Assembly: GCF_000244915.1 (NCBI RefSeq)
Contig: NZ_CM001442.1
Span: forward strand, 5,332,001-5,396,000
Source: Bradyrhizobium sp. WSM471
Lineage (GTDB): Bacteria; Pseudomonadota; Alphaproteobacteria; Rhizobiales; Xanthobacteraceae
Length of the DNA stretch: 64,000 bases
Direction of reading: 5' to 3'
Shown in pieces: positions 3,397 to 53,191 of this stretch. Both the position numbers and the translations under genes were made by a program. Within the stretch, counting starts at the first letter, position 1, and each line of letters starts with the position of its first letter. The notes below the pieces were generated by a model. The model saw only the letters and a list, made by a program, of their open reading frames with translations. It searched no databases and had not been told where the DNA came from.

Positions 3397-3905
3397 TCGC
3401 CTTGCGTCCAGAACGGTGTCACTCAGTCCCCCTTCGAAGCGCCGCTGGTCACGATCCGGGAACAGCATTTCGCAGAGGGTCGGAGCGTCATTAAGGCCAC
3501 TTTTAGTTAAATGCGGATTAAGTTCGGGCGGATGTGGGGCAACCCGTTCGGGTCGTCCCATTTCGAGAAAAAAGCCCGCAGGACTACGGACTTAAGCGCG
3601 TCTGTTAACCATGATTCTCGGCGGGATTTGGCGTTGCCGGCGACCGTCTCCGGCCGCATCTCTAAGGCCATCCAACCAAGTCGTTTTCGTGGTCTTCAAT
3701 ACCCGGAAGATAGCGGGCAAACGTTGCGCGAGGCTGGTGCGCACAGCACCCTCTCCTCCGCAGCCGCAGCGCGGTTGGCAGCAGCCACATCACACACCGC
3801 GCACGCGAGCCGGTGCCCTGACCGAAAGTTGATCGCACCGCATTGGAAAAGGCCGCAGCGAGAAAATAGCTACGGCAACCGGCACTTTTCAGCAGCCTCT
3901 GCGTG
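3397..3905. other. Non-coding stretch of about 0.5 kb
   Basis: This lies between the divergent Tlde1-domain and FecR genes. The open frames that cross it have no recognisable domain and no convincing ribosome site. It must hold the promoters of both genes. Apart from the palindrome immediately to its right I see no strong structure. Confidence 0.5.
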
Positions 3906-3923
3906 TGATACGGTACCGTATCA
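3906..3923. promoter_or_regulatory. Perfect 18-bp palindrome upstream of fecR-like gene
   Basis: TGATACGGTACCGTATCA is identical to its reverse complement and lies 42 bp before the FecR-domain start codon, where a dimeric repressor could block transcription. The cognate regulator is not identifiable from the window. Confidence 0.55.
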
Positions 3924-3965
3924 ACATCGCCTTGAACTGTGCCTGGCACGCAAACGGAGGCTGGC

Positions 3966-4490
3966 ATGAGAGAGTTCGCGCGCGCAGGGCTTTTCGCTCT
4001 GGCGGGGTCGTTTCTGTTGATCGGACATGCGATTGCCCAGCCTGCCGCCAATGTGGGCTGCACGGCGGCGCCGTCTGCTGCCGGTACGCAGACCTGGCGC
4101 TGCGACAACGGCATCACGATCGTTGCCGAAAGCGGTGCCAGATTTGAACTTAAGGACGCTAACCGCGACGGACATATAGACTCGGTGGAGTTGAGCAGCA
4201 AAGCGCTGCTGGTCGAGGTGCCCAAGAAGCCTGGCGGCAAGCCATTCAAGGTCCTGACGCCGCAGGCGATCGCCGCGGTGCGCGGCACGAAATGGGCGGT
4301 CGATGTCGCGGAGGCCAAGACCTCCGTCTTCGTGGCTGACGGCCGTGTCGGCGTGAGCCGCAGGAGCGGCGGGCGCAGCGTGGTATTAGGCCGTGGCGAA
4401 GGCGTCGACGTGGAAGCGACAGGCGCGTTGACGGTCAAGACATGGGGCCAGCCGCGCGTCGACGCATTGATGGCAAGACTTGGTCAATAG
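3966..4490 (+). CDS. FecR domain-containing exported protein
   Basis: A 174-residue protein with a Sec signal peptide (hydrophobic residues 8-22, cleavage after AIA near 24). A FecR-like beta-helical segment follows: ARFELKDAN, PFKVLTPQAIAAVRGTKWAVDV and TSVFVADGRVGV are typical. FecR domains act in the periplasm, in iron-citrate signalling or as stand-alone modules. ATG 3966 is supported by GGAGG at 3956-3960. The next gene downstream, 104 bp away on the same strand, is a CHASE2 cyclase with a large periplasmic sensor, so this may be its periplasmic partner (inference). It lacks the anti-sigma cytoplasmic part and TM of true FecR. Confidence 0.85.
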   Translation: MREFARAGLFALAGSFLLIGHAIAQPAANVGCTAAPSAAGTQTWRCDNGITIVAESGARFELKDANRDGHIDSVELSSKALLVEVPKKPGGKPFKVLTPQAIAAVRGTKWAVDVAEAKTSVFVADGRVGVSRRSGGRSVVLGRGEGVDVEATGALTVKTWGQPRVDALMARLGQ

Positions 4491-4594
4491 GGCTAGGTCA
4501 CGAGACTAGGTCAATAAAACCAGGCCAATAAGTTCGGGTCACCTGGGCCCGGCGAACAGCATTTGGACGATAGAAAAAATTGAAACACGACCAC

Positions 4595-6484
4595 ATGAGT
4601 AGCCGACGCGTTCAGATCCTGGTGGCACTCGTCCTCACCGCGCTGTGGGGCGCGGGCATCTATGCCGGTCACGCCAACGGTCGTCTGCGCTTTCTCGATC
4701 GCCTCGAGGCGACGCTGACGGATTGGCGGACTCAGGTCCGCGGCGTGCGGGTTCCGCCCGATCTCGTCACCATCGTCGCGATCGACGACACCGTCGTGAA
4801 GCGCGGCGGCAGCTACCCGCTGCCGCGGGCCGATCTCGCCCGAATCGTCGACACCATCGTGCAGTTCAAGCCGAAGGTCGTCGCGATCGACCTGCTCCTG
4901 GTCGACCGCAGCGCTGCGATCGGCGACGCCACGCTGGCAAATACGCTGGCTACCGGTCCCATGGTTCTTGCCGCCGCGGCGATCTTCCCGTCCGCCAGTG
5001 AGACCGTGGAGACCAGCGGCCAAGGTCCCCTCGCCGCCCTGCCGCAGGCCGAGCGCTTCCTGCTGCCCTTGCCGGCGTTCGCCGATCATGCCGAGGTCGG
5101 CGTCGTCAACGTTGCGACCGGACAATCGGGCTCGCCGCTCTCGGTGCCGATGCTGTTCCGGACCAGCGACAAGGTCGAGCTGTCCTTCCCGTTGCGGGTC
5201 GCGGCGCGCGCGCTCGACAAGTCGCTGACGATCGCGCCGGACCATCTGATGCTCGGCGACCGCGCGGTGCCGACCGATACCGATTTCGCGCTGCCGATCA
5301 CCTATTACGGCCCGCGCCGGACCATCCGCACCGTCAGCGCACAGAGCATCTTCGACGGCACGCTCAATCGCGCGGCGATCGAGAACCGGATCGTCGTGAT
5401 CGGCGCCTCCGTCGCCGGCGGAGGCGATTTCTACCCGACGCCGTTCGAATCTCTGATGCCCGGCGTCGAAGTGGTCTCCACGGCGATCACCCATCTGGTT
5501 GCCGGCGACAGCATCGTGCGCGACCGCAAGGTCCACATCGCCGACGCGCTCATCGCGATCCTGTTGCCGATGCTGCTGGTGGGTCTGCTCGCCTGGCGGC
5601 GCAGCGCGCCCGGCATCATGGCGGCGGCCACGGTGATGATCGCCTGGGCCGGCTTCAATCTGTTCGCGTTCACGCACGGCGTCTGGCTGAACGCCGCGAC
5701 CACGCTCGCCGCAGCAGTGCCGCCGGTTGCGGTCTTTGCCGGCGTGCAATTATGGGCGGGAGGCCGCCGCACGCAATATTTCGCAGCCAAGAGCCGGTCG
5801 CTCGCGCAATTCCAGGCCCCGGCGGTGCAAGAGTGGCTGGCGCGCGATCCGAATTTCCTGTCGAAACCCGTCCGGCAGGACGCAGCAATGGTCTTCATCG
5901 ATCTCTCCGGCTTCACGGCGCTGAGCGAGCGGATCGATCCGGGCGAACTCCAGGACATTCTGAAGGCGTTTCACGCGCTGGTCGAGAAGACCGCGGTCGA
6001 TTGCGGTGGCATGATCAGCGGCTTTCTCGGCGACGGCGCCATGATCCTGTTCGGCCTGCCCGGCGCGATGCCCGACGACGCCGCGCGCGCGCTGAAATGC
6101 GCGATCGACCTGCACCGTGGCGTCGAACGCTGGATCGCATCGTTGCCGCCTGCGATGCGGGATCAGCTCGGCTTCAAGATCGGCGCGCATTTCGGCCCGA
6201 TCGTCGCCTCGCGCCTCGGCGAAAGCCATCAGCACATCACGGCGACGGGCGACACCGTCAACGTCGCGAGCCGGTTGATGGAGGTTGCCGTTCAGAACGG
6301 CGCGCGCCTCGCGCTCAGCGACACGCTGCTGGATGCGGCCGACTTTCAGGGCGGTCCCGACGGCGTTCTGTCGGGCCCCCTGCTCACGCAGGTCCGCGGC
6401 CGCTCCGGCGTCGTGACCGTCTGGTTCTGGCGCGACCAGGACAGGCCGAACCAGGCCGCGACCAAGGCCGAGACGATCAACTGA
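4595..6484 (+). CDS. CHASE2-domain adenylate/guanylate cyclase
   Basis: About 629 residues: an N-terminal TM (residues 8-25), a periplasmic CHASE2 sensor (about 30-300; VTIVAIDD, YPLPRADLARIV, VVAIDLLL), three closely spaced TM helices (about 312-385) and a class III cyclase domain (about 430-610). The metal-binding Asp residues sit in FIDLSGFT (near 435) and GFLGDGAM (near 478), and TGDTVNVASRL is the typical core. It would make cAMP or cGMP in response to a periplasmic cue. The start is either ATG 4595 or the in-frame TTG 4580; neither has a strong Shine-Dalgarno. It is paired with the upstream FecR gene. Confidence 0.92.
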   Translation: MSSRRVQILVALVLTALWGAGIYAGHANGRLRFLDRLEATLTDWRTQVRGVRVPPDLVTIVAIDDTVVKRGGSYPLPRADLARIVDTIVQFKPKVVAIDLLLVDRSAAIGDATLANTLATGPMVLAAAAIFPSASETVETSGQGPLAALPQAERFLLPLPAFADHAEVGVVNVATGQSGSPLSVPMLFRTSDKVELSFPLRVAARALDKSLTIAPDHLMLGDRAVPTDTDFALPITYYGPRRTIRTVSAQSIFDGTLNRAAIENRIVVIGASVAGGGDFYPTPFESLMPGVEVVSTAITHLVAGDSIVRDRKVHIADALIAILLPMLLVGLLAWRRSAPGIMAAATVMIAWAGFNLFAFTHGVWLNAATTLAAAVPPVAVFAGVQLWAGGRRTQYFAAKSRSLAQFQAPAVQEWLARDPNFLSKPVRQDAAMVFIDLSGFTALSERIDPGELQDILKAFHALVEKTAVDCGGMISGFLGDGAMILFGLPGAMPDDAARALKCAIDLHRGVERWIASLPPAMRDQLGFKIGAHFGPIVASRLGESHQHITATGDTVNVASRLMEVAVQNGARLALSDTLLDAADFQGGPDGVLSGPLLTQVRGRSGVVTVWFWRDQDRPNQAATKAETIN

Positions 6485-9427: not shown

Positions 9428-9631
9428 TTACTGGTTCGGGACTTCCTTGATTACCGGCCCTCGCGGCACGGGCGCGGCAGGGGCCGCCGGCGCCGCAACC
9501 CCGGCCGGCTCAGCCTTCGCAGGTTTGGGCGGCTTGCCGTACTGGCCGATCGGCCCAAAGACGACGGCGACCGCAAGCACGATCGCCGCGACGATCGCGC
9601 CCAAAATGCCCCCCACCGACTCAGACGACAT
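9428..9631 (-). CDS. Small single-pass membrane protein, hypothetical
   Basis: A 67-residue ORF. A hydrophobic segment at residues 9-27 (ILGAIVAAIVLAVAVVFGP) is followed by an Ala/Pro-rich tail ending VIKEVPNQ. The TM plus low-complexity tail and clean GC-rich codon usage suggest a real small protein. I recognise no family. It stands alone between the glycosyltransferase operon and the next minus-strand gene. Confidence 0.5.
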   Translation of the reverse strand: MSSESVGGILGAIVAAIVLAVAVVFGPIGQYGKPPKPAKAEPAGVAAPAAPAAPVPRGPVIKEVPNQ

Positions 9632-9720
9632 GGAAACCCATCCCTGTTCCAGATGCGCCCAGTGATACCATGGATGAGCGCGCTGCCGGAAGGGCTTGCC
9701 GGACGCACCGGTTCAATGGG

Positions 9721-10113
9721 CTATTTCTGCGGCGGCTTGTGCTTGACGAAGGCCATCACGATGTCCTTCTGCGCCGCCTCCACCGCCCTGTTCGCGGTCG
9801 CGAGATGGGCGCCGGCATCGATAGCCGGATATTGCGTGGTGAGATAATCGAGCAGTGCCACCCGGTAATATTGCCGCTCCGACGGACAGGCTCCGGCGAC
9901 GGAGCGGCCAAAATCCTGTTCCGACAGGCCCTGATTGCCGTCGCGCGAATATTCCCGCGCCAGGCAATGCCAATAATCATCGCGGCCCTGCATGGCGAGC
10001 TTCTGCGCACCCTTGGCATCGTCATCGTCGGCCATGACCGAAGACATCATGGCAGCAGATGTCATCATGACGAGCGCCGCTCCCACTATCAGCATCCGCA
10101 TCTTGTTCTCCAT
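9721..10113 (-). CDS. Exported protein of unknown function
   Basis: A 130-residue protein with a signal peptide (residues 5-28, cleavage after VMA) followed by an acidic DDDDAKG start of the mature part. Two cysteines (WHCLAREY and GACPSERQYY) could form a disulfide, and the C-terminus is helical (AVEAAQKDIVMAFVKH). ATG 10101 (MRML) is an alternative start. I recognise no family. It is preceded by the divergent DUF72 gene, so the 104 bp between them should carry promoters for both. Confidence 0.7.
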   Translation of the reverse strand: MENKMRMLIVGAALVMMTSAAMMSSVMADDDDAKGAQKLAMQGRDDYWHCLAREYSRDGNQGLSEQDFGRSVAGACPSERQYYRVALLDYLTTQYPAIDAGAHLATANRAVEAAQKDIVMAFVKHKPPQK

Positions 10114-10217
10114 TTTTTCGCAGATCCCGTCGCGAGCTTAGACGGGACGTCGAAACTGGCCAATCACAACTGGTTTGATTAGGATGGAGGTCCTCCTCCC
10201 GTCATCCGAGATCCTCC

Positions 10218-40912: not shown

Positions 40913-41716
40913 CTACACTGTCATCGACGTCGATGACCCCGATGATCCCGCCGAAGCCTGCGCCTGGCGCTGCATCATCTGCCCGAACCAATCATAGGGC
41001 GAATTGCGCCCGCCTGCCCCGTTCGAAGAGCTGGAGGCGCCCGGGACCGTCGTCGACATCTTGAAGCCGTCGGCGTAGGTGACGGTGGTGGTGGTCGAAC
41101 CGTCGGCGCCGGTCGTCGAAGTCGAGGTCGAGCCGCCGCTGGACGGCGAGGAGGAATCCGAGCCGCTGCCGGAGGCATCGCCGGCACCCTGCGCGTGATG
41201 GTGGCCGTGGTGGCCGCTCTTCAGCGCCTTCGACATCTCATCGAGGTTGACGCTGCCGTCGGTATTCGAATCCAGCTTCGAGAAAACGTCGTCGGCCTGC
41301 GCGAGGTTGGTGCCACCAGCGCCGAGCGCATTCTCGAATTCCGACTTGGTGATCTTGCCGTCGCCATCGCCATCGATCTGCGAGAACAGATCCTTCAGGG
41401 CGGCATCGCGGCGCGTCGAGGACGAGGATGTCGAGCTCGACGAGGTCGAGTTGGCGGCGCTGCCAGTGCTGTCCGTCGACTGGCTCTGCGCTGCGAACAG
41501 CGCGTTCATCGTCTCCGGCGAGATCTGCGGTGTTTTGCCCGCATTGACCGACGAGGTCGCGCCGGTCGTGCTGTTGCTGCCGCTGTCGATCGCGAACGGA
41601 TTGGTCGGAGGCTTTTGCGAGGACCCCGTCTTCTGCGTCGACGAGGACGATTTCGAATTTGTCAGCGACTGGATCGCGTCGAGCGCGCTCGATACGGCCC
41701 CAAGAGCGAACAACAT
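40913..41716 (-). CDS. EF-hand calcium-binding protein with Ser/Thr-rich linkers
   Basis: About 267 residues from ATG 41716. Two EF-hand loops, DGDGDGKITKSE (near 115) and DSNTDGSVNLDE (near 148), carry the canonical acidic positions and pair. They are flanked by low-complexity Ser/Thr/Gly regions and a His-rich patch (GHHGHHHAQG near 172). The first residues (MLFALGAVSSALDAI) are weakly hydrophobic but not a clear signal peptide. Similar proteins are frequent in Bradyrhizobium; I know no defined function. The low complexity makes exact boundaries uncertain. Confidence 0.85.
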   Translation of the reverse strand: MLFALGAVSSALDAIQSLTNSKSSSSTQKTGSSQKPPTNPFAIDSGSNSTTGATSSVNAGKTPQISPETMNALFAAQSQSTDSTGSAANSTSSSSTSSSSTRRDAALKDLFSQIDGDGDGKITKSEFENALGAGGTNLAQADDVFSKLDSNTDGSVNLDEMSKALKSGHHGHHHAQGAGDASGSGSDSSSPSSGGSTSTSTTGADGSTTTTVTYADGFKMSTTVPGASSSSNGAGGRNSPYDWFGQMMQRQAQASAGSSGSSTSMTV

Positions 41717-41967
41717 TGCACAACTCCAACCGATGCGGCATGCCGCGGCCAATGTTCTGTTCAGGTCAAGTCAGCAAACGCCGTGCCAGCGCAAAAAGCT
41801 CAATGAAATCCGCTTTCACCACACTTTGCACGGCCCGGGAACACCGGCAATTCATGCCGGTCGCGGCAGAAATTTCCGCCCACAGGAAGCACGCCGCCCC
41901 TGCATTGCCCGGCTGAGAGGCCCATGTTAGGCGAGTCCATCTTTCACGGCCGCCACGGGAAACCGCC

Positions 41968-42669
41968 ATGACCCAAGCCTTCGTCCCCCGCCCCCTGGCA
42001 ATCGCGCCCTCGATACTGGCCTCGGATTTCTCCAGGCTCGGCGAGGAGGTGCGCGCCGTGGACGCCGCCGGAGCCGACTGGATCCATCTCGACGTCATGG
42101 ACGGGCACTTCGTTCCCAACATCTCGTATGGCCCCGACGTCATCAAGGCGATGCGCCCGCACACCAAGAAGATCTTCGACGCGCATCTGATGATCTCGCC
42201 CTGTGACCCCTATCTGGAGGCCTTCGCGAAAGCCGGCTGCGACCACATCACCGTGCATGCCGAGGCCGGTCCCCATCTGCACCGCTCGCTTCAGGCGATC
42301 CGCGCACTCGGCAAGAAGGCCGGCGTTTCGCTCAATCCGGGCACGCCGATCAGTGCGCTCGAATACGTCCTGGACCTGATCGACCTCGTGCTGGTGATGT
42401 CGGTCAATCCCGGCTTCGGCGGCCAGGCCTTCATCCCCTCCGCAATCGGCAAGATCCGCGACATCCGCGCCATGACAGCGGGCCGTCCGATCGACATCGA
42501 GGTCGATGGCGGCGTCGGGGCCGACGTCGCAGGTCCCCTGGCTGCAGCCGGGGCCAACGCCTTCGTCGCCGGCACGTCCGTGTTCAGGGGCGGCACGCAG
42601 GACGCCTACAAGACCAACATCGCCGCAATCCGCAACGCCGCCGCGGGTGCACGCGGCGAGGCGATCTGA
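41968..42669 (+). CDS. rpe: Ribulose-phosphate 3-epimerase
   Basis: A 233-residue TIM barrel. [35 protein letters not shown] with metal His and Asp, [19 protein letters not shown] and EVDGGVGAD are the diagnostic blocks. It interconverts ribulose- and xylulose-5-phosphate in the pentose phosphate and Calvin cycles. ATG 41968 is close to the conserved start. No Calvin-cycle genes are in the window, so it is probably the housekeeping copy. Confidence 0.96.
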
Positions 42670-42818
42670 GGGCCCGCTCGGCTCCGCCGACGTGCGGCTT
42701 CTACGGGTGTTGCGGCGCGCAATGCCTAAATTTGCAACCTTGATCCGTACTCCTCCGGGCTTCCCTGATTCGCGCAAATCACCGCTAGTGATTCTTGCCT
42801 GTTTCGCGGGAGCACATC

Positions 42819-42959
42819 ATGACGACGACCCTGGTTTGGACTGGCGTGGCGTTGTGGCTTGGTTTTTGTGCGTTTGTTGTGTTTGGTCCATCGGCCGGAC
42901 CGGTGAAGGTCTCGCTACGCTCGGCCCGCATCGCTCGTCGCGACTGGTATCGGGCCTGA
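42819..42959 (+). CDS. Tiny membrane protein, 46 residues, hypothetical
   Basis: ATG 42819 follows GCGGGAG with good spacing. The protein has one strong TM helix (LVWTGVALWLGFCAFVVFG) and then a basic cytoplasmic tail (KVSLRSARIARRDWYRA). A TM plus positively charged tail is typical of small regulatory or stress membrane proteins. I know no homologue. Confidence 0.5.
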   Translation: MTTTLVWTGVALWLGFCAFVVFGPSAGPVKVSLRSARIARRDWYRA

Positions 42960-42963
42960 CCCC

Positions 42964-43140
42964 ATGCAGATCGCGCTTGTGAAACGTCAACCGAAGCGCC
43001 GGTGCCGCATCCCGCGGCGCCCGCATCCTGATCTCGATTTTTTCTTCGGTCGACTCGAACGCACCGAAGGCGAGATGCGCGACGACACCGGGCCCGAGAT
43101 GGACCTGGATCACCCGCTCCGGTCACCGCGCCGGCATTGA
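42964..43140 (+). CDS. Small charged ORF, 58 residues, hypothetical
   Basis: ATG 42964 lies 4 bp after the stop of the 46-residue membrane ORF, suggesting coupling. The product is rich in Arg, Asp and Glu (KRQPKRRCRIPRRPHP, then FFFGRLERTEGEMRDD). It has no recognised domain and the frame could be accidental. Confidence 0.3.
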   Translation: MQIALVKRQPKRRCRIPRRPHPDLDFFFGRLERTEGEMRDDTGPEMDLDHPLRSPRRH

Positions 43141-43161
43141 ATTCTTTTCTGGACCAAACTC

Positions 43162-43353
43162 ATGAAGCCGCATTGCCCGAACTGCCTGAAGGAAATGACC
43201 AAGGCATCCGCGTCGCGTAACCTGTTCAACTGCGAGCCCTGCCGCGAGATCATCCAGTTCTTCGGCGGCAGCGCGGATCACGGCGAGCCCGGCCCGCAAT
43301 TCTCCTGGCCGATCCGTCGCAAGCGCTCCGTCCACACCGCTCACGCGGCCTGA
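43162..43353 (+). CDS. Small zinc-ribbon-like protein, hypothetical
   Basis: A 63-residue ORF with two Cys-x2-Cys pairs (HCPNCLKE near residue 4 and FNCEPCREI near 23), the layout of a compact zinc ribbon, then a basic tail. ATG 43162 has only a weak ribosome site. No family is assigned. Confidence 0.5.
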   Translation: MKPHCPNCLKEMTKASASRNLFNCEPCREIIQFFGGSADHGEPGPQFSWPIRRKRSVHTAHAA

Positions 43354-43377
43354 ACCTCCAGTATCCAGAGCGCGGCC

Positions 43378-44802
43378 CTATCCGGCCTCCTCGCCCGCAT
43401 CCGCAGCCATTCGCGGCGGCCGGACCACGGTGACGGTGCAGGCCGCTTCCGAGGCCACCTTGGCCGAGACGCTGCCGAGCAGCGTGCGCCTGAACGAGCC
43501 CTGCCGCGCACCGATGATGATGTGGTCGACGTGGTTGACCTCACAAAACTCCAGGATCGCCGCGGCGGGGTCGACGGCTTCCAGCACGTGAGCCGACAGC
43601 CGGCTTTCATCCAGCTTGAGCGGCGTGGCCCAGTGTCTGAGCGCCACCAAGCGGTCGATATGCTTATTGGAGCCCTGCTCATCCAGCGTCCTGTCGATCG
43701 CGATGCGGTTAAGCTTCAGAACGTTGAGACAGGCGAGCCGCGCCGACGGCAGCGTGGCGAGAATACGCTCGGTCGTGACGCGCAACGCTTCGTTCAGCTC
43801 GGGGGCGCCTTCCACCGTGTCGAGCGCGACCGCGAGGATCGGGCTTGATGCGATCTGGGCTGCGACATCCGATTTCGCGCGCGGCTGCATGACGCCCTGG
43901 TTGAAGCGGCGCCGCCAAGCGACGCTTAACGGATCGCGCTTCATCCGCTCCGAGCGTGTGGTGAGTCTGACCTGGTCCGGATGGGTGAGATCGAAGGCGA
44001 GCTGGGACGCGGTCGGATAGCGCCGCACCGGCTCGATCTCGAGGCATCGCAGCACCACCTCCTGGATCCAGGGCGGATAGTCGGCGCGAAGCGAGCGCGG
44101 CGGGTGCGGATCGCGCCACAGCCGGCGCCGCATCGCGCGCAGCGTCTCGCCCTCGCCGAACGGCCGCTCGCCGGTCGTGAAGAAATAGAGCAGCACGCCA
44201 AGCGAGAACAGATCGCTGCGCGGATCGTCGCGCACCCCTGACAACCGTTCCGGCGCCATATAGGGCGCAGTGCCGTAAGGCAGGCGGAATTCCTCCTGCA
44301 ACAGGTCCGGCAGATGGTTGTGATGCGACAGGCCATAGTCGATCAGCACCGCCTCGCCGCTCTCGCGGAACATGATGCTGCTCGGCTTGATGTCGTGATG
44401 GATCACGTTCTGCCGGTGCAGATCCGCGAGCCCCGTCGCGATCCTGGCGACGAGCTGCCGCGCCTCGGCATATGGCAGCGGCAGGTCGGGCAGCCGCTTG
44501 TAGAGTGTGGTCCCGGAGATGCGCTCGATCACGACATAGGCTTGGTGGGCGAAGTCGCCGGTGCCGAAACATGAGGGCACGTGCGGCCCGGCCAGCCGCG
44601 GCAGGATCATCATCTCCATCTCGAAGGAGACGATCGCCGCGGGGTCTTCGCCCTCCGACACCCGCGGAATCTTCATCAGCAGCGGCACGTCGAGGCCGGG
44701 ACGGGTGACCGTCCACAGCGTCGCCATGCCGCCGGCATGGACGCATTCGCCGATCGTGTAGCCGTCGATCTCTGCGCCTGATTTGACGAGGGGTTTCGGC
44801 AT
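43378..44802 (-). CDS. Ser/Thr protein kinase fused to universal stress protein domain
   Basis: A 474-residue fusion. Residues 12-275 are a eukaryotic-type kinase: ATP Lys44 (LLMKIPRV), catalytic loop VIHHDIKPSSIMF near 137 with HHD for HRD, metal Asp in LIDYGLSHH (DYG for DFG), PYMAPERL, and SDLFSLGVLLYFF. Residues 320-465 are a universal stress domain with ATP motif GARQGSFRRTLLGSVS near 440. No TM or PASTA region is present, so it is cytoplasmic. It lies 6 bp after a PPP-like phosphoesterase gene, forming a kinase/phosphatase pair downstream of the MotA/ExbB-like operon. The USP part may sense ATP (inference). Confidence 0.92.
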   Translation of the reverse strand: MPKPLVKSGAEIDGYTIGECVHAGGMATLWTVTRPGLDVPLLMKIPRVSEGEDPAAIVSFEMEMMILPRLAGPHVPSCFGTGDFAHQAYVVIERISGTTLYKRLPDLPLPYAEARQLVARIATGLADLHRQNVIHHDIKPSSIMFRESGEAVLIDYGLSHHNHLPDLLQEEFRLPYGTAPYMAPERLSGVRDDPRSDLFSLGVLLYFFTTGERPFGEGETLRAMRRRLWRDPHPPRSLRADYPPWIQEVVLRCLEIEPVRRYPTASQLAFDLTHPDQVRLTTRSERMKRDPLSVAWRRRFNQGVMQPRAKSDVAAQIASSPILAVALDTVEGAPELNEALRVTTERILATLPSARLACLNVLKLNRIAIDRTLDEQGSNKHIDRLVALRHWATPLKLDESRLSAHVLEAVDPAAAILEFCEVNHVDHIIIGARQGSFRRTLLGSVSAKVASEAACTVTVVRPPRMAADAGEEAG

Positions 44803-44808
44803 CGGCCT

Positions 44809-45549
44809 CTAGCGCCCCTGCGACAGCCGGTCGGCGAGCCAATGCGGCAGGCCGTTCTCGCGGATCCGGTTCGCGGCCGTCTCGACATCGTAGGGCGCGC
44901 GGCAATAGGTGATCTGGCACGAGACGGTGTCGAACAGCACGAAAGCCGCGGATGGATCGCTATCGCGGGGTTGGCCGACCGAGCCAAGCACCGCAAGCCA
45001 TTGCCGCCCGCGCAGCAGCGGTACGGAGACGTCGGTCTTGGGCACGAGCCCCGACATCTTCGCCGTCACCGACATCGAATAGATCGCCGGGCGGTGGATG
45101 TGGCCGCAGAACGTGACATGAGCTGGCGTCGCGATCAGGCTTTTGGCGGCGTCGGCGGTCGATCGGACATAGTGCCAGCTTCGGGGGCTGGAGGCTTCCG
45201 AATGCACGAACAGGCGATCGCCGTCCTCCACCAGCATCGGCAATTCCGCCAGGAACCGCCGCTGCGCGGTGTCGAGCCGGCCGCGGGTCCATTCGATCGC
45301 GATTTGCGCCTCGGCATTCATGGTCTCGGCCGAGGAATTCACCGCCTGGTCATGATTGCCGCGCACGGCGACGGCGCCTTGGGCAACGAGCTCCATCGCG
45401 GTATCCACCACCCATTCCGGATCGGCGCCATAGCCGACGAAGTCGCCAAGCAGGATGAAGCGCTCGGCGCCACGCGCCCGCGCGACTTTCAGGCACGCCT
45501 CGAACGCCTGCCGGTTGCCGTGGATATCCGAGAAGACAGCGAGAAGCAC
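44809..45549 (-). CDS. Calcineurin-like metallophosphoesterase
   Basis: A 246-residue enzyme with all metal motifs: FSDIHGNRQAF (Asp8, His10), LLGDFVGYGADPEWV, VRGNHDQAV, FVHSEASS and CGHIHRP. It is close to the PPP/MPE bacterial group that includes protein phosphatases and diadenosine tetraphosphatases. Directly adjacent to a Ser/Thr kinase gene (6 bp), it is a good candidate for the opposing phosphatase, but a nucleotide substrate is equally possible. It lies 117 bp downstream of the membrane-protein operon. Confidence 0.92.
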   Translation of the reverse strand: MLLAVFSDIHGNRQAFEACLKVARARGAERFILLGDFVGYGADPEWVVDTAMELVAQGAVAVRGNHDQAVNSSAETMNAEAQIAIEWTRGRLDTAQRRFLAELPMLVEDGDRLFVHSEASSPRSWHYVRSTADAAKSLIATPAHVTFCGHIHRPAIYSMSVTAKMSGLVPKTDVSVPLLRGRQWLAVLGSVGQPRDSDPSAAFVLFDTVSCQITYCRAPYDVETAANRIRENGLPHWLADRLSQGR

Positions 45550-45666
45550 GCACCCTCCACCCCTCGAACCTTATTGGGAGCCGATAAGGCCAAATTGAGG
45601 GAGGTCAAGAACATGCGCCAGCGGAGCGCGGTTTGCCAGCACTGCCCTGTCACGATGGTGAAAAGC

Positions 45667-46272
45667 CTATTGCTCGTCCTTCGGCGGCATCCGGGGCGGC
45701 GGCAACGGCGTGAACACGGCGCCCTGCGCGCCGGCCGGTGGTGCCAGGAATTCGCCGGTCGAGGAATCGCCTCCGCTCGTCTCCAAAATGGTCTTGGGCG
45801 TCACATATTCCCTGACCATGTCGATGAGGCTGCCATCGCCGCCGCCGAAATCGGCGGCCCGGCCGCCTTGCGGATGTCCCAGCGCGATCTCGTTCTCCGC
45901 CGCATGGGTCTTGTCGGCCAGCCTGTCATTGTAGGGCACACGAAAGGCGCGCGGGATGCCGCTCGGCCGATTGTCCTCGTCGAGCTGCTCGACCCAGAGA
46001 TAGATCGAGCCGGGATCGCCCTCCAGCGAATGCGGCTCGACGATGCGGGTCTTCAGCAGCTTGAAGGAGGCCGGCAGCCGGTCGGCGCTGGCCCAGCCGA
46101 GCAGCCCGCGCATTTCCGTGAAGCTGACGACATAGAAGGCGCTGGTCACGACCACCGCGACGGCCTTGATTGACCAGTGCAGCCGCGCATAGACGAGCAC
46201 GACCAGCAGCAGCGCGCCGATGACGGCGTAGGCTATCGATAGTGTGAGGATGACCGTCTGCAGGCTAGTCAC
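45667..46272 (-). CDS. Membrane protein of unknown function, third gene of MotA/ExbB-like operon
   Basis: A 201-residue protein starting with GTG 46272, inside the end of the upstream gene (8-bp overlap). Two TM helices (about residues 6-29 and 34-52: IKAVAVVVTSAFYVVSF) are followed by a soluble part with SIYLWVEQLDEDNRPSGIPRAFRVPYNDRL spread over a beta-rich stretch, then a Gly/Pro-rich tail ending PLPPPRMPPKDEQ. No family is recognised. Tight coupling to the channel-like genes suggests it is a structural partner of that complex. Confidence 0.75.
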   Translation of the reverse strand: MTSLQTVILTLSIAYAVIGALLLVVLVYARLHWSIKAVAVVVTSAFYVVSFTEMRGLLGWASADRLPASFKLLKTRIVEPHSLEGDPGSIYLWVEQLDEDNRPSGIPRAFRVPYNDRLADKTHAAENEIALGHPQGGRAADFGGGDGSLIDMVREYVTPKTILETSGGDSSTGEFLAPPAGAQGAVFTPLPPPRMPPKDEQ

Positions 46273-46951
46273 GGCGCACCCTCACAGCGTTCCTGCTCAC
46301 CCCGGTGTTCGGGTCGAGATCGGCGCCGTTGCGCCAGCCGCTGCGGAAGGTCTCCAGCAGCGATTTCGGCCGCTGGTCCACATTGACGACCTTGCCTTCG
46401 GCGTCGAGCCGGAACCGCACCGCGGTCTTCTCGTCGCCGGTGTGATCGACCGTGAACTTGTTATCGAAGATCACCTGCGCCGTCGGATTGAGTTTTTGCA
46501 CCTTCACATTGGCCGTCACGGGCTCGCCGGTCGTGGCGACGAAATGCGAGACGTTGACGGTGTATTCGCCGGGAACGATGCCGCGCACCGTGACGATCTC
46601 CTCGCGGATCGGCGAGGCAATCTTCTTGCCGTTGACCACGATGAAGTCGTTGGCTCCGCCGCGGTCGTCGCGATCGAGCGTGAGGAAGCCGGCCTCGCGG
46701 TGGCGATACCAGGCGATGTTGCCCACGGGATCCTGCACGAACAGGTCGAGATCGTCGGGATGGCTGTCCGGCCAATCCAGCGTGATCATAAACTCGGCCT
46801 TGGAGTCGATCTTGCCGTCCTTGGCGTCCGGCGAGACCGCGAGCAGCGCCAGGAAGAACAGGAAAGCGATCACCTGGAGCGCCTTGAACAGCATCACGCC
46901 CAGCGGGTCGAACGGCTCCTCGCGCGGATAGAGACCGAAATCATCCATCAT
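46265..46951 (-). CDS. Single-pass protein with MotB/ExbD-like topology and a beta-rich periplasmic domain
   Basis: About 228 residues. A short cytoplasmic N-terminus holds Asp in EPFDPLGVML immediately before one TM helix (residues 18-40, VIAFLFFLALLAVS). The rest is periplasmic. It contains LDWPDSHPDDLDLFVQDPVGN, and GIVPGEYTVNVSHF, resembling DUF2135-like beta-sandwich modules with an acidic DDLDLFV turn. MotB and ExbD have the same layout (Asp at a single TM helix, large periplasmic domain), but here no OmpA or ExbD fold is visible. ATG 46951 overlaps the MotA/ExbB-like stop by 4 bp. The role as stator partner is inference. Confidence 0.75.
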   Translation of the reverse strand: MMDDFGLYPREEPFDPLGVMLFKALQVIAFLFFLALLAVSPDAKDGKIDSKAEFMITLDWPDSHPDDLDLFVQDPVGNIAWYRHREAGFLTLDRDDRGGANDFIVVNGKKIASPIREEIVTVRGIVPGEYTVNVSHFVATTGEPVTANVKVQKLNPTAQVIFDNKFTVDHTGDEKTAVRFRLDAEGKVVNVDQRPKSLLETFRSGWRNGADLDPNTGVSRNAVRVRRD

Positions 46952-47733
46952 GTCGCGATTCCAGCGCCCTTGATTCCAGAACCCTTGCGCTCCAGCACCG
47001 GCGTCACATAGGTCTCGGTCAGCACCACCGCATCCGAGAACACCTTCTGGGTCGCGGCATCCAGCATGTAATACTGGATGCGGACCAGGATCGAACCGAC
47101 CAGGCCCGCCAGCGTCGTGTACATCGCGACCGCCATACCGTCGCTCATCAGTCCCATCGAGGATCGCATCGCGACCTTGTCGGCAGCATCCAGCCCCGCG
47201 ATCGGCGCCAGCATGATGATGAAGCCGACGATGGTGCCGAGCAGGCCGAGCTTCATCAGCGTGTCCGAGACGAAGGCGCCGAAGCCGTTGGAACCGCGCA
47301 GGCGGTCGGCGAGCGTTCGCAGCAACAGCGTCTGGTCGACAAGGCGGTAGTCCTGCGCCGCGGCCTTGGTCACGAGGCTCTCGATGTGGTCCCGCACCAG
47401 CCCGCGTGGCAGCTCGGCTGCGCCGGCGTCGAGCGCCCTGCCGCCCTCGGGCGCCGCAAGCACCGCGCGGCAGCGCCGGGCCGCCGCGCCCTCGCGGGCA
47501 ATGGCCCGCGTGCGCAGGAAGCAATGACCGCAGGTGAGGACATAGAGCAGCGCGATCAAGCTGGAAATGTAGGTCCGGTCCGAGGTCAGCATCAGACGGA
47601 TCAGGCCGAACCGCCACAGCAGCACGACCGCGAAGATCGAAAGCCCGGTGAAGATCATCCAGAACAGGAGCGCGCTACGCTCGGATGGGTCGGCAGCAGG
47701 CCCCGCGATCGGCCCAATCGTCATCGAACTCAT
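46948..47733 (-). CDS. MotA/TolQ/ExbB proton channel family protein
   Basis: A 261-residue protein from ATG 47733, preceded by AGGAGCGG. Two TM helices near residues 22-45 and 55-73 lead into a cytoplasmic loop. The paired conserved helices of the family follow: LMKLGLLGTIVGFIIMLAPI near 165 and SDGMAVAMYTTLAGLVGSILV near 200. Members form the ring that uses ion flow to drive MotB, ExbD or TolR. It is the first gene of a coupled operon with two unrecognised membrane proteins and is divergent from a two-component system at 47913. There is no tonB, tolR or flagellar gene nearby. Confidence 0.88.
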   Translation of the reverse strand: MSSMTIGPIAGPAADPSERSALLFWMIFTGLSIFAVVLLWRFGLIRLMLTSDRTYISSLIALLYVLTCGHCFLRTRAIAREGAAARRCRAVLAAPEGGRALDAGAAELPRGLVRDHIESLVTKAAAQDYRLVDQTLLLRTLADRLRGSNGFGAFVSDTLMKLGLLGTIVGFIIMLAPIAGLDAADKVAMRSSMGLMSDGMAVAMYTTLAGLVGSILVRIQYYMLDAATQKVFSDAVVLTETYVTPVLERKGSGIKGAGIAT

Positions 47734-47912
47734 GCTGCACCGCTCCTGGCCGTGAATTCCGCCCATTAGATCAAAGCCGCCGCGCCCGGTCCAAAGAGCC
47801 ATGCCCAATTCGGCTTGGGAAATTTGCCCGAGCTGCCATCCTGCCGATCCCCGCAATTGGCAAGGCGCGGCGGCGTTGTTAGGCTGACCTTACCAAACTT
47901 TGGGGTGATCGC

Positions 47913-49283
47913 ATGCGCCTTGTGCTTCAGCTTGTCGCCCGTCTGTTTCTCATCGTCGCCCTCTGCCTTGGCGCGGCGACCATCTGGGCCACGTTCGACG
48001 CCTATCGCAGCGTCGACCGGGCGACTGCGGCCTCGGCGCAGCGGGTCGCCCAAGCGCTTCAGGCTCTGTACTGGCACGAATTCTTGTTGCGTAGCAGCAG
48101 AACACGCGAGCAACTTCTGCCGGTTCCGGAGTGGCGCACGCTGGAGACGATGAAGCTGATCTCACCCGGCGTCTGCGTCGAATTCCAACCGGCCATCGCC
48201 TTCGAAAAGCCGCTCTGCGGCCAGAGTGAGGGGCTGGGCAAGACGCCGCCGCGCTGGTTCGCGTCGATCGTGCCGACCTTCCTCGGCAGCCATGCCGAAG
48301 TGATACGGCCGGTCAGTCCCCGCGCGGCGACCGCCGGAGCGGTGGTTGCGACGCCGGATGAAGCGGCCGCCATCTCGCTCGCCTGGGAATACATCCTCAA
48401 CGTGATCGACGTCGCGCTTTTGATGGCGACAGCGATCGCGCTCCTGGCTTCGCTCGCGATTGCGCATGCGCTGGCGCCGGCACGCACGATCGTGACCGCC
48501 CTGCAGCGCATGGCGCGCGGTCAGTATCGCACGAAACTACCGCGCTTCCGCTCGATGGAGCTGGCGATGATCGGCAGCGCCGTCGGCGAGCTCGGCGGGC
48601 GGCTGGAGGAGGCGACCGAACAGCGCGCGGCGCTGACGCGGCGCCTGATCGAGATCCGCGACGACGAACGCCGCGCGCTCGCCCGCGAGCTGCACGACGA
48701 GTTCGGACAAAATCTCTCGGCCATCCTCGCCTTCGCCAACACCATCGAGACGGCGAGCACGAAGGCAGACAAGCACAGCGACATCGTGCAGGACGCGCGG
48801 ATGATCTCGCAGGCCACGCATCATCTGATGGCCTCGCTGCGCGACGCGCTGAAGCGCCTGCGCAATCCCCTGCCCGCCGAGCTTGGGCTGGAGGCGAGCC
48901 TCGTGAATTTGGTGGATAGCTGGCGCTCGCAGAGCGCGGCGCGGCCGACGATCCAGCTCGATCTCAAGGGCGACCTCACCGACATCAGCGGCCCGGCCGC
49001 GACCACCGCCTATCGCGTCGCGCAGGAATGCCTGACCAACGCGTTGCGCCACGGCACGGCACGCGAGATTTCTCTGCACGTCGAGCGGCGCGCGGGCGAC
49101 GACGATGCGTTGCTGATCCGCGTCGAGGACGATGGCGGCGGCAACGCGGCACGCGTTGCGCAGTCGACCGGCTTCGGCCTCACGGGGATCCGCGAGCGCG
49201 TCGCAGCGGCCGGCGGATCATTCTCGATCCTGCCCGCCCGCGGCGGACTCAGCGTCGCCGCCACCATCCCGCTCGCCGCGTGA
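47913..49283 (+). CDS. Sensor histidine kinase, NarL-partner type (HisKA_3)
   Basis: A 456-residue kinase: TM1 (residues 8-27), a periplasmic domain of about 120 residues resembling the LapD/MoxY N-terminal sensor (VCVEFQPAIAFEKPLCG), TM2 (about 165-192), HAMP-like linker (ALAPARTIVTALQRMARGQY), HisKA_3 with ELARELHDEFGQNLSAI-type box (His near 260), and HATPase with ECLTNALRHG and GFGLTGIRERV. It autophosphorylates and passes phosphate to the LuxR-type regulator 7 bp downstream. Its promoter region is shared with the divergent MotA/ExbB-like operon. Confidence 0.93.
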   Translation: MRLVLQLVARLFLIVALCLGAATIWATFDAYRSVDRATAASAQRVAQALQALYWHEFLLRSSRTREQLLPVPEWRTLETMKLISPGVCVEFQPAIAFEKPLCGQSEGLGKTPPRWFASIVPTFLGSHAEVIRPVSPRAATAGAVVATPDEAAAISLAWEYILNVIDVALLMATAIALLASLAIAHALAPARTIVTALQRMARGQYRTKLPRFRSMELAMIGSAVGELGGRLEEATEQRAALTRRLIEIRDDERRALARELHDEFGQNLSAILAFANTIETASTKADKHSDIVQDARMISQATHHLMASLRDALKRLRNPLPAELGLEASLVNLVDSWRSQSAARPTIQLDLKGDLTDISGPAATTAYRVAQECLTNALRHGTAREISLHVERRAGDDDALLIRVEDDGGGNAARVAQSTGFGLTGIRERVAAAGGSFSILPARGGLSVAATIPLAA

Positions 49284-49290
49284 GGCCGGG

Positions 49291-49941
49291 ATGAACGAGA
49301 TTACCGCAACAGGCATCTCCGTGCTGCTGGTCGACGACCATCCGATCGTGCGGCAAGGCTATCGGCGCGTGCTGGAAAGCCAGGGCGATCTGCATGTCGT
49401 GGCGGAAGCCGACAACGCCGCGGATGCCTACGGCGCCTTCAAGGCGCGCGATCCCGACGTGGTCTTGCTGGATATCTCGATGCCCGGCGCGAGCGGGCTG
49501 GAAGCCATCCGCAACATCCGCGCGCGCAGCCCGCGGGCGCGGATCCTCGTGTTCACCATGCACAACGAAGCCGTGCTGGTGAAGGCAGCCTTCAATGCCG
49601 GCGCCAGCGGCTTCGTCACCAAGAGCAGCGAGCCGTCCGCGGTCGTCGCCGCGATCCGCAGCGTTGCCCGCGGCGAGCGCGCCATGAGCGACGACATCGC
49701 GCACATCCTGGCGGAGGACAGCCTGTCGGCGGGCTCGGCGCTGGATCAACTGGGCGAGCGCGAGATCGAGATCCTGCGCCAGTTCGCCGGCGGTGCCACG
49801 ACCGAACAGATCGCAGCGCATCTCAATCTCAGCGTCAAGACGGTGCAGAACTATCACTATCTGATCAAGACCAAGACCGGCGCACGCACGGATGCGCAGC
49901 TGGTGCGGCTGGCAGCCAATTGTGGGCTGACAAAGATCTAG
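49291..49941 (+). CDS. LuxR/NarL family response regulator
   Basis: A 216-residue regulator. The receiver has VLLVDDHPIVRQGY, phospho-Asp in VVLLDISMPGASG near residue 61, and FVTKSSEP with the conserved Lys. The LuxR HTH at the C-terminus has GEREIEILRQFAGGATTEQIAAHL and NLSVKTVQNYHYLI. It starts 7 bp after the kinase stop, so the two are co-transcribed. Targets are unknown; the divergent channel operon is a natural candidate. Confidence 0.95.
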   Translation: MNEITATGISVLLVDDHPIVRQGYRRVLESQGDLHVVAEADNAADAYGAFKARDPDVVLLDISMPGASGLEAIRNIRARSPRARILVFTMHNEAVLVKAAFNAGASGFVTKSSEPSAVVAAIRSVARGERAMSDDIAHILAEDSLSAGSALDQLGEREIEILRQFAGGATTEQIAAHLNLSVKTVQNYHYLIKTKTGARTDAQLVRLAANCGLTKI

Positions 49942-51994: not shown

Positions 51995-53191
51995 ATGCAC
52001 CACCTGCCAAACGACACTATCGCAGTCACCCTGCCGGACTTCGGTCAATCCATGACCGTGCTCGGAGATCCCGGGTTGGCAACCGATGACTGGGGCGGAA
52101 ACGATGCGCTGACGGCAGCCATATCGAGTCTCAACTCGAACGTGACGCTCGTTGGGGAAGACCTGGCGGCCATGCATGGCAATTCTCACGGAGGAAACGA
52201 CAGTCTCGTGGTGAGCGTGGATGGCGGCTGGGATAATGCCGTTGCCGTTGGCGATGCCCAATCCATGGCGGACAACACTCGGGGCGGTAACGACACCCTC
52301 AATGTCGATGCCCACAACTCGCTCTACACCAATGTTTATCTCTATGGCGATGTCCAAGGTGACATGTCGGGCAACGCGGGAGGCGGAAATGACACACTGA
52401 CGGCGTCGACCGGATGGAGATCGTTCGGATCGCTCAGCGGGGACGCTGGTGGCGCCATGAGCGGCAATGCGCACGGCGGGAATGATACGCTGAGCGCGAC
52501 GGACTATGGGATAAATGGCGGCGGCGACGCACTCAGCGGCGATGCCACTGGCGCCATGACCGACAACGCGGTCGGCGGAAACGACATCCTGACCTTTGCG
52601 GCGAGCAGCGACGCCCAGCTCGGAGGAGGAAGCCTGTCGGGCGATTCCGGAACGTCCATGTCCGACAATGCCCAGGGCGGGAACGATATCCTCACCGCCG
52701 TCGTCGATGGCGAGCGAGCTGCTTTCAGCACGACGTTGTACGGCGACGCTCCCACAATGTCGGGCAATGCTCACGGCGGGAACGACAGCCTCACCGGGGG
52801 ATCGAGCCCCGATCGCCTGGCGGGCGATGCGATGAGCTACGCTCCTTCATCACCCGGCTCGATCACCGGAGGCACGGATACCCTAAACGGTGGCGGCGGC
52901 AATGATCTCCTGTGGGGCGGCCCGAACAACGACACGTTCGTCTTCAACACGGGCTCCGGCCAGGACATCATCAACGACTTCAATCAAGGCAACCAGGCTG
53001 TCGGCAGCACCACCACCGAACACGACGTGATCAACCTGCATGACTACGGCTTCGCAGACTGGGCAGCCGTCTCCAGCCTCATCGGCGACAATAGCGCCGG
53101 CGATGCCGTGATCCACCTCACCGCCAACGATACGATCACGTTGGACGGCGTGCACACGGCGGCGCTTCACCCAACGGACTTCGTCATCTGA
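51995..53191 (+). CDS. RTX-like repeat protein with eight GGND units and serralysin-type C-terminus
   Basis: A 398-residue acidic, Gly/Asn/Asp-rich protein. Eight GGND boxes recur every 31-34 residues, each followed by a hydrophobic strand and a Gly-Asp...Met-x-x-Asn turn (for example MSGNAHGGNDTL). Near residue 290 it turns into canonical RTX (GGTDTLNGGGGNDLLWGG) and then a peptidase M10 C-type end, FVFNTGSGQDIINDF to HPTDFVI, typical of type I secretion substrates. No signal peptide and no ABC exporter is nearby. ATG 51995 follows GGAG. It is flanked by homologous tetR 3' sequences, which suggests an acquired segment. Confidence 0.85.
   Translation: MHHLPNDTIAVTLPDFGQSMTVLGDPGLATDDWGGNDALTAAISSLNSNVTLVGEDLAAMHGNSHGGNDSLVVSVDGGWDNAVAVGDAQSMADNTRGGNDTLNVDAHNSLYTNVYLYGDVQGDMSGNAGGGNDTLTASTGWRSFGSLSGDAGGAMSGNAHGGNDTLSATDYGINGGGDALSGDATGAMTDNAVGGNDILTFAASSDAQLGGGSLSGDSGTSMSDNAQGGNDILTAVVDGERAAFSTTLYGDAPTMSGNAHGGNDSLTGGSSPDRLAGDAMSYAPSSPGSITGGTDTLNGGGGNDLLWGGPNNDTFVFNTGSGQDIINDFNQGNQAVGSTTTEHDVINLHDYGFADWAAVSSLIGDNSAGDAVIHLTANDTITLDGVHTAALHPTDFVI

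Follow-up and report, generated by a model that had tools for sequence, protein, structure and literature searches.

To our knowledge, the tasks of the ion-driven motors of the ExbB/MotA family are few: flagellar torque, TonB import, Tol, gliding and Zorya. The described systems closest to the locus presented here are the 5:2 motors ExbB-ExbD and TolQ-TolR, the flagellar stators MotA-MotB and PomA-PomB, and the ZorA-ZorB pair of Zorya. To these, a 2025 survey of MotAB proteins adds the generic ion transporters (GIT), non-flagellar homologues which, according to that survey, bear varied domains of unknown function (PMC12505986). The locus belongs to Bradyrhizobium sp. WSM471 and lies in a stretch of 64,000 nucleotides, hereafter the window, which spans positions 5,332,001-5,396,000 of the 7.78-Mb one-contig genome. 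It centers on three genes, called A, B and C. We read this trio, with a probability of about 0.5, as an ExbBD-like motor of three subunits that serves alcohol oxidation in the periplasm and, in the Bradyrhizobium branch, has an altered ion coupling. The three genes are the following, in coordinates of the window:

46948..47733, minus strand: gene A, channel subunit of the MotA/TolQ/ExbB family (261 amino acids; PF01618)
46265..46951, minus strand: gene B, one transmembrane (TM) helix and a DUF2135-like periplasmic beta domain (228 amino acids)
45667..46272, minus strand: gene C, two TM helices and a periplasmic domain with a proline-rich end (201 amino acids; no known family)

The ATG of B and the stop codon of A share 4 nt, and B and C overlap by 8 nt. 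Protein A belongs to the MotA/TolQ/ExbB channel family, as had been proposed from the nucleotide sequence alone (the sequence-only reading): its match to PF01618 (E 2.1e-8, 34.4 bits) passes the curated cut-off of 22.9. In an alignment of 12 proteins, A and its relatives share the motifs GLxGTxxGF and GMxxAxYTTxxG. At E<=0.01, the A profile has a single PDB match, 8vvn, a 696-residue MotA/TolQ/ExbB-domain chain that we take to be a ZorA. This match favours a rival reading, an anti-phage system of the Zorya kind, in which A would be related to ZorA and B would descend from ZorB by degeneration. A also matches the PADLOC model ZorA1 (E 1.6e-6) and the NCBIfam model ZorA_2 (E 0.0027) and, among the matches listed, a kinase encoded downstream of the trio (gene E, described below) reaches the PADLOC kinase models PD-T4-6 (4e-52) and MAD6 (1e-44), which may reflect the kinase domain alone. 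Such a system is nevertheless highly improbable, as the NCBIfam ZorA score is 16.8 bits against a cut-off of 100, A is 261 residues long against 383-780 positions for the ZorA profiles, PADLOC yields no model at E<=1 for either B or C, and the relatives of the trio are found in a quinoprotein context. Membership in Zorya was ruled out by the ZorA score below cut-off, the lack of a long tail and the absence of a ZorB match.

Searches of Pfam, NCBIfam, PADLOC and PHROGs assign B to no family with a convincing score. An ExbD/TolR domain is found at E<=1 neither by Pfam nor by NCBIfam in B, nor by Pfam in 13 of its relatives, and an OmpA-like domain has no match at E<=1 in B or in 13 relatives. 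By Pfam, B is therefore distinct from both families, in agreement with the non-canonical partner announced by the sequence-only reading, and an ordinary ExbD or MotB identity was ruled out since no such Pfam domain is present. An AlphaFold2 model (mean predicted local distance difference test score, pLDDT, of 62 for B, and of 60 for C, from shallow alignments of 76 Bradyrhizobium-like proteins) places a single N-terminal TM helix at residues 16-39, where the block pLDDT is 76-92; Foldseek returned nothing at E<=0.001 with the B model. At the helix start, the relatives of B read (D)PF(S/T)DLLFN, FRDV and similar, and the ExbD/TolR-type proteins encoded elsewhere in the WSM471 genome (judged by motif and PF01618 neighbour) read NVTPFIDV and NVTPMVDV. 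The periplasmic domain resembles DUF2135 at the profile level: hhalign aligns the B profile with DUF2135 (PF09906) over 81 columns with a probability of 93.7 and E 2e-7, in a comparison built from 9/10 DUF2135 and 16/20 TerD loci chosen by a motif. The Pfam DUF2135 model matches four of 13 relatives (best 0.0018) but not the B of the window, so that the earlier “DUF2135-like” label stands for the profile and not for a Pfam match. The TerD family, a beta sandwich, was considered as a further possible relative of this domain. Residues D67, D69, D95, D96 and E118 of the domain are invariant. B combines an ExbD-like short N-terminal TM helix with a DUF2135-like periplasmic domain. Long proteins of loci L194, L204 and L205 (655-1118 residues) match mostly the periplasmic part of the B profile; on sequence grounds, the B-like domain may occur in other architectures too.

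The AlphaFold2 model of C displays TM helices at residues 4-28 and 33-57 and a periplasmic part with a proline-rich end. Searches of Pfam, NCBIfam, PADLOC, PHROGs and the PDB yielded nothing convincing, and the fold comparison nothing informative above a TM hairpin, in line with the two-TM protein outside known families described from the sequence. C is the third, co-conserved membrane protein of the unit.

The distribution of the three genes argues for such a unit. Among 150 genomes of the order (order set), 14 possess B, 14 possess C and 13 possess both, adjacent to each other, in seven families. Two genomes depart from this pattern: in G022, B was found but C was not, whereas in G090 C is broken and B is missing. 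At the G090 locus (L041), a histidine kinase/response regulator (HK/RR) pair lies at 3443-5481 and the broken C at 9601-10119, and B was not found; the genome has several genes for pyrroloquinoline quinone-dependent alcohol dehydrogenases (PQQ-ADH), and the locus is perhaps a remnant of the trio. A B-profile search matched 41 of 289 genomes in a set covering the class (35 at E<=2e-40) and 14 of 299 in a set covering the phylum. Three of the latter matches, all from one family (f220), come from outside the class, and there A and C adjoin B. From 54 locus stretches examined, L194, L204, L205 (the long B-like proteins) and L041 (broken C) were set aside; the remaining 50, which include close relatives and are not 50 independent events, bear A-B-C in this order and on one strand in 43 cases (C being weak in L199). 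One of the other seven reads A-C-B, C is missing after A-B in four (one of which is at a contig end), and the last two hold only B (again, one is at a contig end). The trio is thus kept beyond Bradyrhizobium, in Alphaproteobacteria and in a second class. With A, B and C co-conserved beyond the order and B devoid, by Pfam, of an ExbD/TolR or OmpA domain, the undescribed stator-type unit postulated earlier gains substance.

A tree of B proteins separates type 1 (n=33 including the window, support 0.77) from type 2 (n=13, support 0.96), and the C proteins likewise split into two clusters. Within type 1, the clade of the window joins L174-L179, L181 and L182 (support 0.93). In Azospirillum brasilense Sp 7, A-B-C is carried by the 1.75-Mb replicon ABSP7_p1 (L250), its B falling within type 2; the PLSDB table lists no genes for this region. 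The trio occurs even in genomes of about 1.4 Mb. A search of viral contigs with one protein as query, which reaches close relatives only, gave no relative of B; a plasmid search with B gave seven distant matches, on Azospirillum replicons at 31-34% identity, and one with A gave no match. A phage or plasmid origin of the trio is unsupported by these searches.

The surroundings of the trio vary between lineages. In ten loci (L167-L173 and L196-L198), C is followed by a lipoprotein-like protein of 230-377 residues with an “FPL...W.Y” segment near its N-terminus, the L196 representative of which has no NCBIfam match at E<=1e-5. A small Sel1-repeat TM protein is encoded upstream of A in L031 and L034-L037, and near A in L032 (Pfam Sel1 5e-14 for L034). 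In L032-L035 (family f34), the trio lies beside an NHL-repeat protein and a two-gene pair that we assume, from its appearance, to be DUF692 plus DUF2063.

The neighbours of type-1 trios were identified with NCBIfam models. They comprise a PQQ-dependent methanol/ethanol dehydrogenase (TIGR03075, E 1.8e-235), a SoxYZ-like carrier (TIGR04557, 8.7e-81 and 8.1e-84), the binding protein (TIGR03863, 8e-128) and permease (TIGR03861, 1e-121) of a PQQ-linked ATP-binding cassette (ABC) transporter and a beta-propeller protein (TIGR03866, 3e-141), all above cut-off, as well as a SoxH-like hydrolase, whose nearest model TIGR04558 stays below cut-off, and a pentapeptide-repeat protein. At least one quinoprotein gene or BLAST homologue thereof is found in 13 of 32 type-1 stretches versus 0 of 13 type-2 stretches. 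Three of 14 further type-1 stretches from the family of the window (L269, L270 and L272) also bear quinoprotein genes, and the pooled figures are 16/46 for type 1 and 0/13 for type 2 (p 0.009), most stretches being 20 kb long, some ended by contig borders, and the two counts using slightly different BLAST limits. In the clade of the window, such genes lie near the trio in L200, L269, L270 and L272, and six of the eight loci joined to it (L174-L179, L181, L182) are quinoprotein-linked.

The same association appears at the level of whole genomes, with p-values that ignore kinship and counts that are phylogenetically non-independent. At E<=1e-100, PQQ-ADH is present in 13 of 14 B-positive genomes of the order set versus 40 of 136 others (p 5e-6), and in 18 of 21 type-1 genomes of the class set versus 53 of 268 others (p 1e-9). 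All 11 type-1 families have at least one genome with PQQ-ADH, and among type-2 genomes it is found in 4 of 14 (p 0.46). The type of 35 class-set genomes was assigned, 28 from locus stretches or the window and G157, G167, G172, G198, G400, G183 and G407 by score and family label only; the PQQ-ADH genome lists match the tallies at cut-off (52 and 64). The fused SoxYZ-like carrier follows the same trend in the order set: at E<=1e-60, a count that omits G120 (split match), it is present in 13/13 type-1 genomes versus 29/137 others (p 1e-8), the latter figure becoming 36/137 at the curated cut-off (p 1e-7). Taken together, type 1 keeps quinoprotein company, by co-occurrence and, in a third of the loci, by proximity.

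This company could also be explained by a TonB-type energiser, in which A-B would be a specialised ExbBD and C, in the place of TonB, would pull outer-membrane receptors for PQQ or lanthanide import. The ExbD-like motif of the B relatives, the quinoprotein linkage and the build of C, with N-terminal TM helices and a proline-rich periplasmic end, fit this scheme. In Methylorubrum, moreover, a TonB-dependent receptor is reported to act in lanthanide uptake, although cells could bypass it with time (PMC7391723). Yet C has no convincing match in Pfam, NCBIfam or the PDB and is modelled with two TM helices, no TonB-dependent receptor occurs among the recurrent neighbours that were identified (many neighbour clusters having no identification), and ExbB/ExbD-type genes are present elsewhere in the same genome. 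A TonB-type role is therefore considered unlikely.

A distinctive trait of the window and its clade concerns the start of the B helix, where three codons matter:

46907..46909, minus strand: codon 15 of B, Asp, four residues ahead of codon 19, in the whole clade (from alignments)
46895..46897, minus strand: codon 19 of B, Val, at the ExbD/TolR position; Asp in 45/45 relatives outside the clade
46883..46885, minus strand: codon 23 of B, Lys within the TM helix, clade-specific (from alignments)

Since every one of the 45 sequences from beyond the clade, among them type 2 and the outliers, has Asp aligned to residue 19, the Val of the six clade members (6/6) is a derived state. V19 and K23 are both present in 80/80 Bradyrhizobium-type loci (the best-matching of 400 relatives and close kin; 79 are titled Bradyrhizobium and one “Frankia sp. 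RB7”) and in 13/13 readable further loci of the family, L278 being without that region. Among the 32 sequences outside both the clade and type 2 (27 of type 1 and 5 outliers), 28 have Asn as residue 23. D15, which is kept, lies one helical turn before V19, and K23 one turn after it. The acidic residue at the helix start (PFxD) by which ExbD/TolR proteins are judged is thus replaced by V19 in the B of the window; the “one TM helix preceded by Asp” of the sequence-only reading is literally true, thanks to D15, but this residue is off the ExbD/TolR position. The B protein of the window is 94% identical to one Bradyrhizobium protein and 98-99% to the best named Bradyrhizobium contigs. Measured against the window over 75-80 loci, the median ratio of nonsynonymous to synonymous substitutions (dN/dS) of B is 0.105, and that of the six other genes of the region (HK, RR, A, C, D and E) 0.09-0.12; the Val branch is therefore not a case of decay. 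The Thr-bearing motifs of A, both Thr of TTxxG included, are unaltered in the clade. Judging from these alignments, the branch of the window looks like a version of the motor without the acidic residue normally used for carrying protons.

The best explanation is that A, B and C would form one inner-membrane complex of the ExbBD/MotAB kind. By homology, A pentamers would enclose a B dimer and the flow of ions through A would move B, which, together with C, might act on partners in the periplasm or outer membrane, by force or by a conformational signal. Possible partners are the Sel1-repeat protein encoded upstream of A and, in other lineages, the lipoprotein-like protein after C. The task would be performed during periplasmic quinoprotein alcohol oxidation and might consist, for example, in cofactor or metal supply or in envelope integrity. 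Because Val occupies the usual acidic site of B, coupling in the clade of the window would proceed via D15, one turn lower, or via another ion, unless protons are not conducted at all. A bolder version, which we propose only tentatively, is that of a rotary motor specialised for quinoprotein alcohol oxidation, in which a DUF2135-type domain would head the axle and the third subunit would be obligatory. In Bradyrhizobium, this motor would be independent of the Asp, using D15 with the in-membrane Lys, using another ion or operating without flux.

Several observations weigh against a motor tied to alcohol oxidation, beyond the phylogenetic non-independence of the genome counts. No quinoprotein gene is near the trio of the window: the nearest above cut-off are the PQQ-ADH genes, from 5.867 Mb onwards, and the carrier gene at 5.859 Mb, ~480-490 kb away. 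Thirty of the 46 type-1 stretches are without a quinoprotein gene, and three type-1 genomes (G278, G303 and G329, two of which are 79% and 88% complete) have no PQQ-ADH at E<=1e-100. The order set holds many quinoprotein genomes without the trio (40 by PQQ-ADH, 29 by the carrier), and within the family of the window 101 of 119 genomes lack the trio; it is therefore accessory at most. The loss of Asp19, finally, speaks against an ordinary proton coupling in the branch of the window.

Two further genes follow the trio on the same strand in the window:

44809..45549, minus strand: gene D, metallophosphoesterase (PF12850, 8e-20)
43378..44802, minus strand: gene E, Ser/Thr kinase-Usp fusion (PF00069, 1e-28; PF00582, 2e-13)

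The sequence-only reading had placed these five genes correctly, with every one on the minus strand and the 4-nt and 8-nt overlaps confirmed, and Pfam supports its description of D and E. It had also associated them in a five-gene stator complex, A-B-C-D-E, under phospho-control. In the Bradyrhizobium-type loci, D and E come after the trio in 77 of 80 cases, A-E are ordered on one strand in 76/80 (72+3+1), which favours such a complex, and RR-HK-A-B-C-D-E is intact in 72/80. Five of the eight loci without the intact seven-gene order are at contig ends and three (L061, L078 and L084) are not so explained; in L084 (Bradyrhizobium acaciae), HK, RR, A, B and C are there, and D and E are absent despite ~2.1 kb past B. 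However, tblastn located neither D nor E in the examined stretches outside the genus, nor in L200, which belongs to the same genus; in L279, also of this genus, D is ~7 kb away and E was not found. A 117-nt gap (45550-45666) moreover separates C from D. Promoter- and terminator-like sites (0 and 3) are not above those of shuffled sequence and are silent on transcript borders. As D and E stand beside the trio nowhere outside the genus, they are local neighbours and not parts: their membership in the complex was ruled out on this basis, which makes the five-gene assembly very doubtful and leaves phospho-control unsupported, and they are probably Bradyrhizobium-specific neighbours outside the conserved unit. 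The sequence-only reading, on the other hand, had overlooked the quinoprotein link, the Asp lost from B in this branch and the regulator pair described next.

On the other side of A, a divergent two-component pair is encoded:

47913..49283, plus strand: sensor HK with HisKA_3/HATPase domains, divergent from A (family match)
49291..49941, plus strand: LuxR-type RR, partner of the HK (family match)

The HK gene starts 179 nt from A, in opposite orientation. It faces A in 76/80 Bradyrhizobium-type loci and, within the order, in several further genera, and HK and RR together adjoin the trio in 75/80. The pair is also present at L030 and L201, not at L200, and in seven of the 14 further family loci, L278 having the RR alone. 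L197 encodes a regulator pair related to this one (36% and 43% identity), at a distance of ~3 kb or less from a PQQ-ADH gene. None of the eight proteins scanned in 41968-49938 is a tonB, tolR, ompA or flagellar product, as had been noted from the sequence. In the branch of the window, the expression of A-C is probably set by the divergent HK/RR.

The position of these regulators, together with V19 and K23 in 80/80 and 13/13 loci under strong purifying selection, is compatible with a different role, in which the Bradyrhizobium-clade trio would be no motor at all but a non-conducting scaffold or a sensor for the divergent HK. Three observations make this rather improbable. The channel motifs of A are unaltered, D15 is retained and could substitute for the lost Asp, and three loci of the clade (L269, L270 and L272) have quinoprotein genes close by, just as the Asp-bearing relatives do.

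Elsewhere in the window, an open reading frame (ORF) at 51995-53191 is rich in GGND-type repeats and perhaps encodes a repetitive exported protein. A Ser/Thr-rich ORF at 40913-41752 contains DxDxDG motifs, presumably EF-hand-like.

If the trio is indeed a motor serving alcohol oxidation, a widespread version tied to methanol/alcohol oxidation would represent a new job for the ExbB/MotA family, and would equip methylotrophy with an energised part of the envelope that is so far unexplored. With its natural replacement of Asp by Val, the Bradyrhizobium branch, which is conserved and under selection, offers a ready test of whether 5:2 motors can do without the carboxylate of their axle.

Among known systems, the trio shares with ExbB-ExbD and TolQ-TolR the channel family, the short N-terminus and single TM helix of the partner and, in most relatives, the Asp at the helix start. 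It differs from them by its DUF2135-like domain, its third subunit C, the absence of a recognised TonB or TolA and the Val of one branch. The flagellar stators MotA-MotB and PomA-PomB have in common with it the channel family and the two-gene plan, but B has no OmpA-like domain and no flagellar gene occurs among the eight neighbours scanned. The resemblance to ZorA-ZorB is limited to the channel part of A, which is weakly similar to ZorA; A is devoid of the long tail, B has no ZorB match and the scores are far below cut-offs. Within the excerpted text of the GIT survey, DUF3450 and DUF2341 are described on A subunits, and neither a DUF2135-like B, a third subunit nor a quinoprotein link is mentioned (PMC12505986). 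In the open-licence literature searched, no title or abstract among the matches listed joins ExbB/MotA-like proteins to a DUF2135 partner or a quinoprotein cluster, and no paper contains both ExbD and DUF2135, which does not imply absence from print. A review of the ped/exa and xoxF quinoprotein clusters does not use “ExbB” or “MotA” in its main text, whereas the clusters that it covers resemble the type-1 neighbourhood, with PQQ-ADH, SoxYZ-like carrier, SoxH-like hydrolase, pentapeptide-repeat protein, PQQ-linked ABC transporter and beta-propeller (PMC12997753). The channel subunit and the two-gene plan are thus already known, while that literature showed no counterpart of the B domain, of the third subunit, of the link to quinoproteins or of the branch with Val, features which set this trio apart from the described members of the family.

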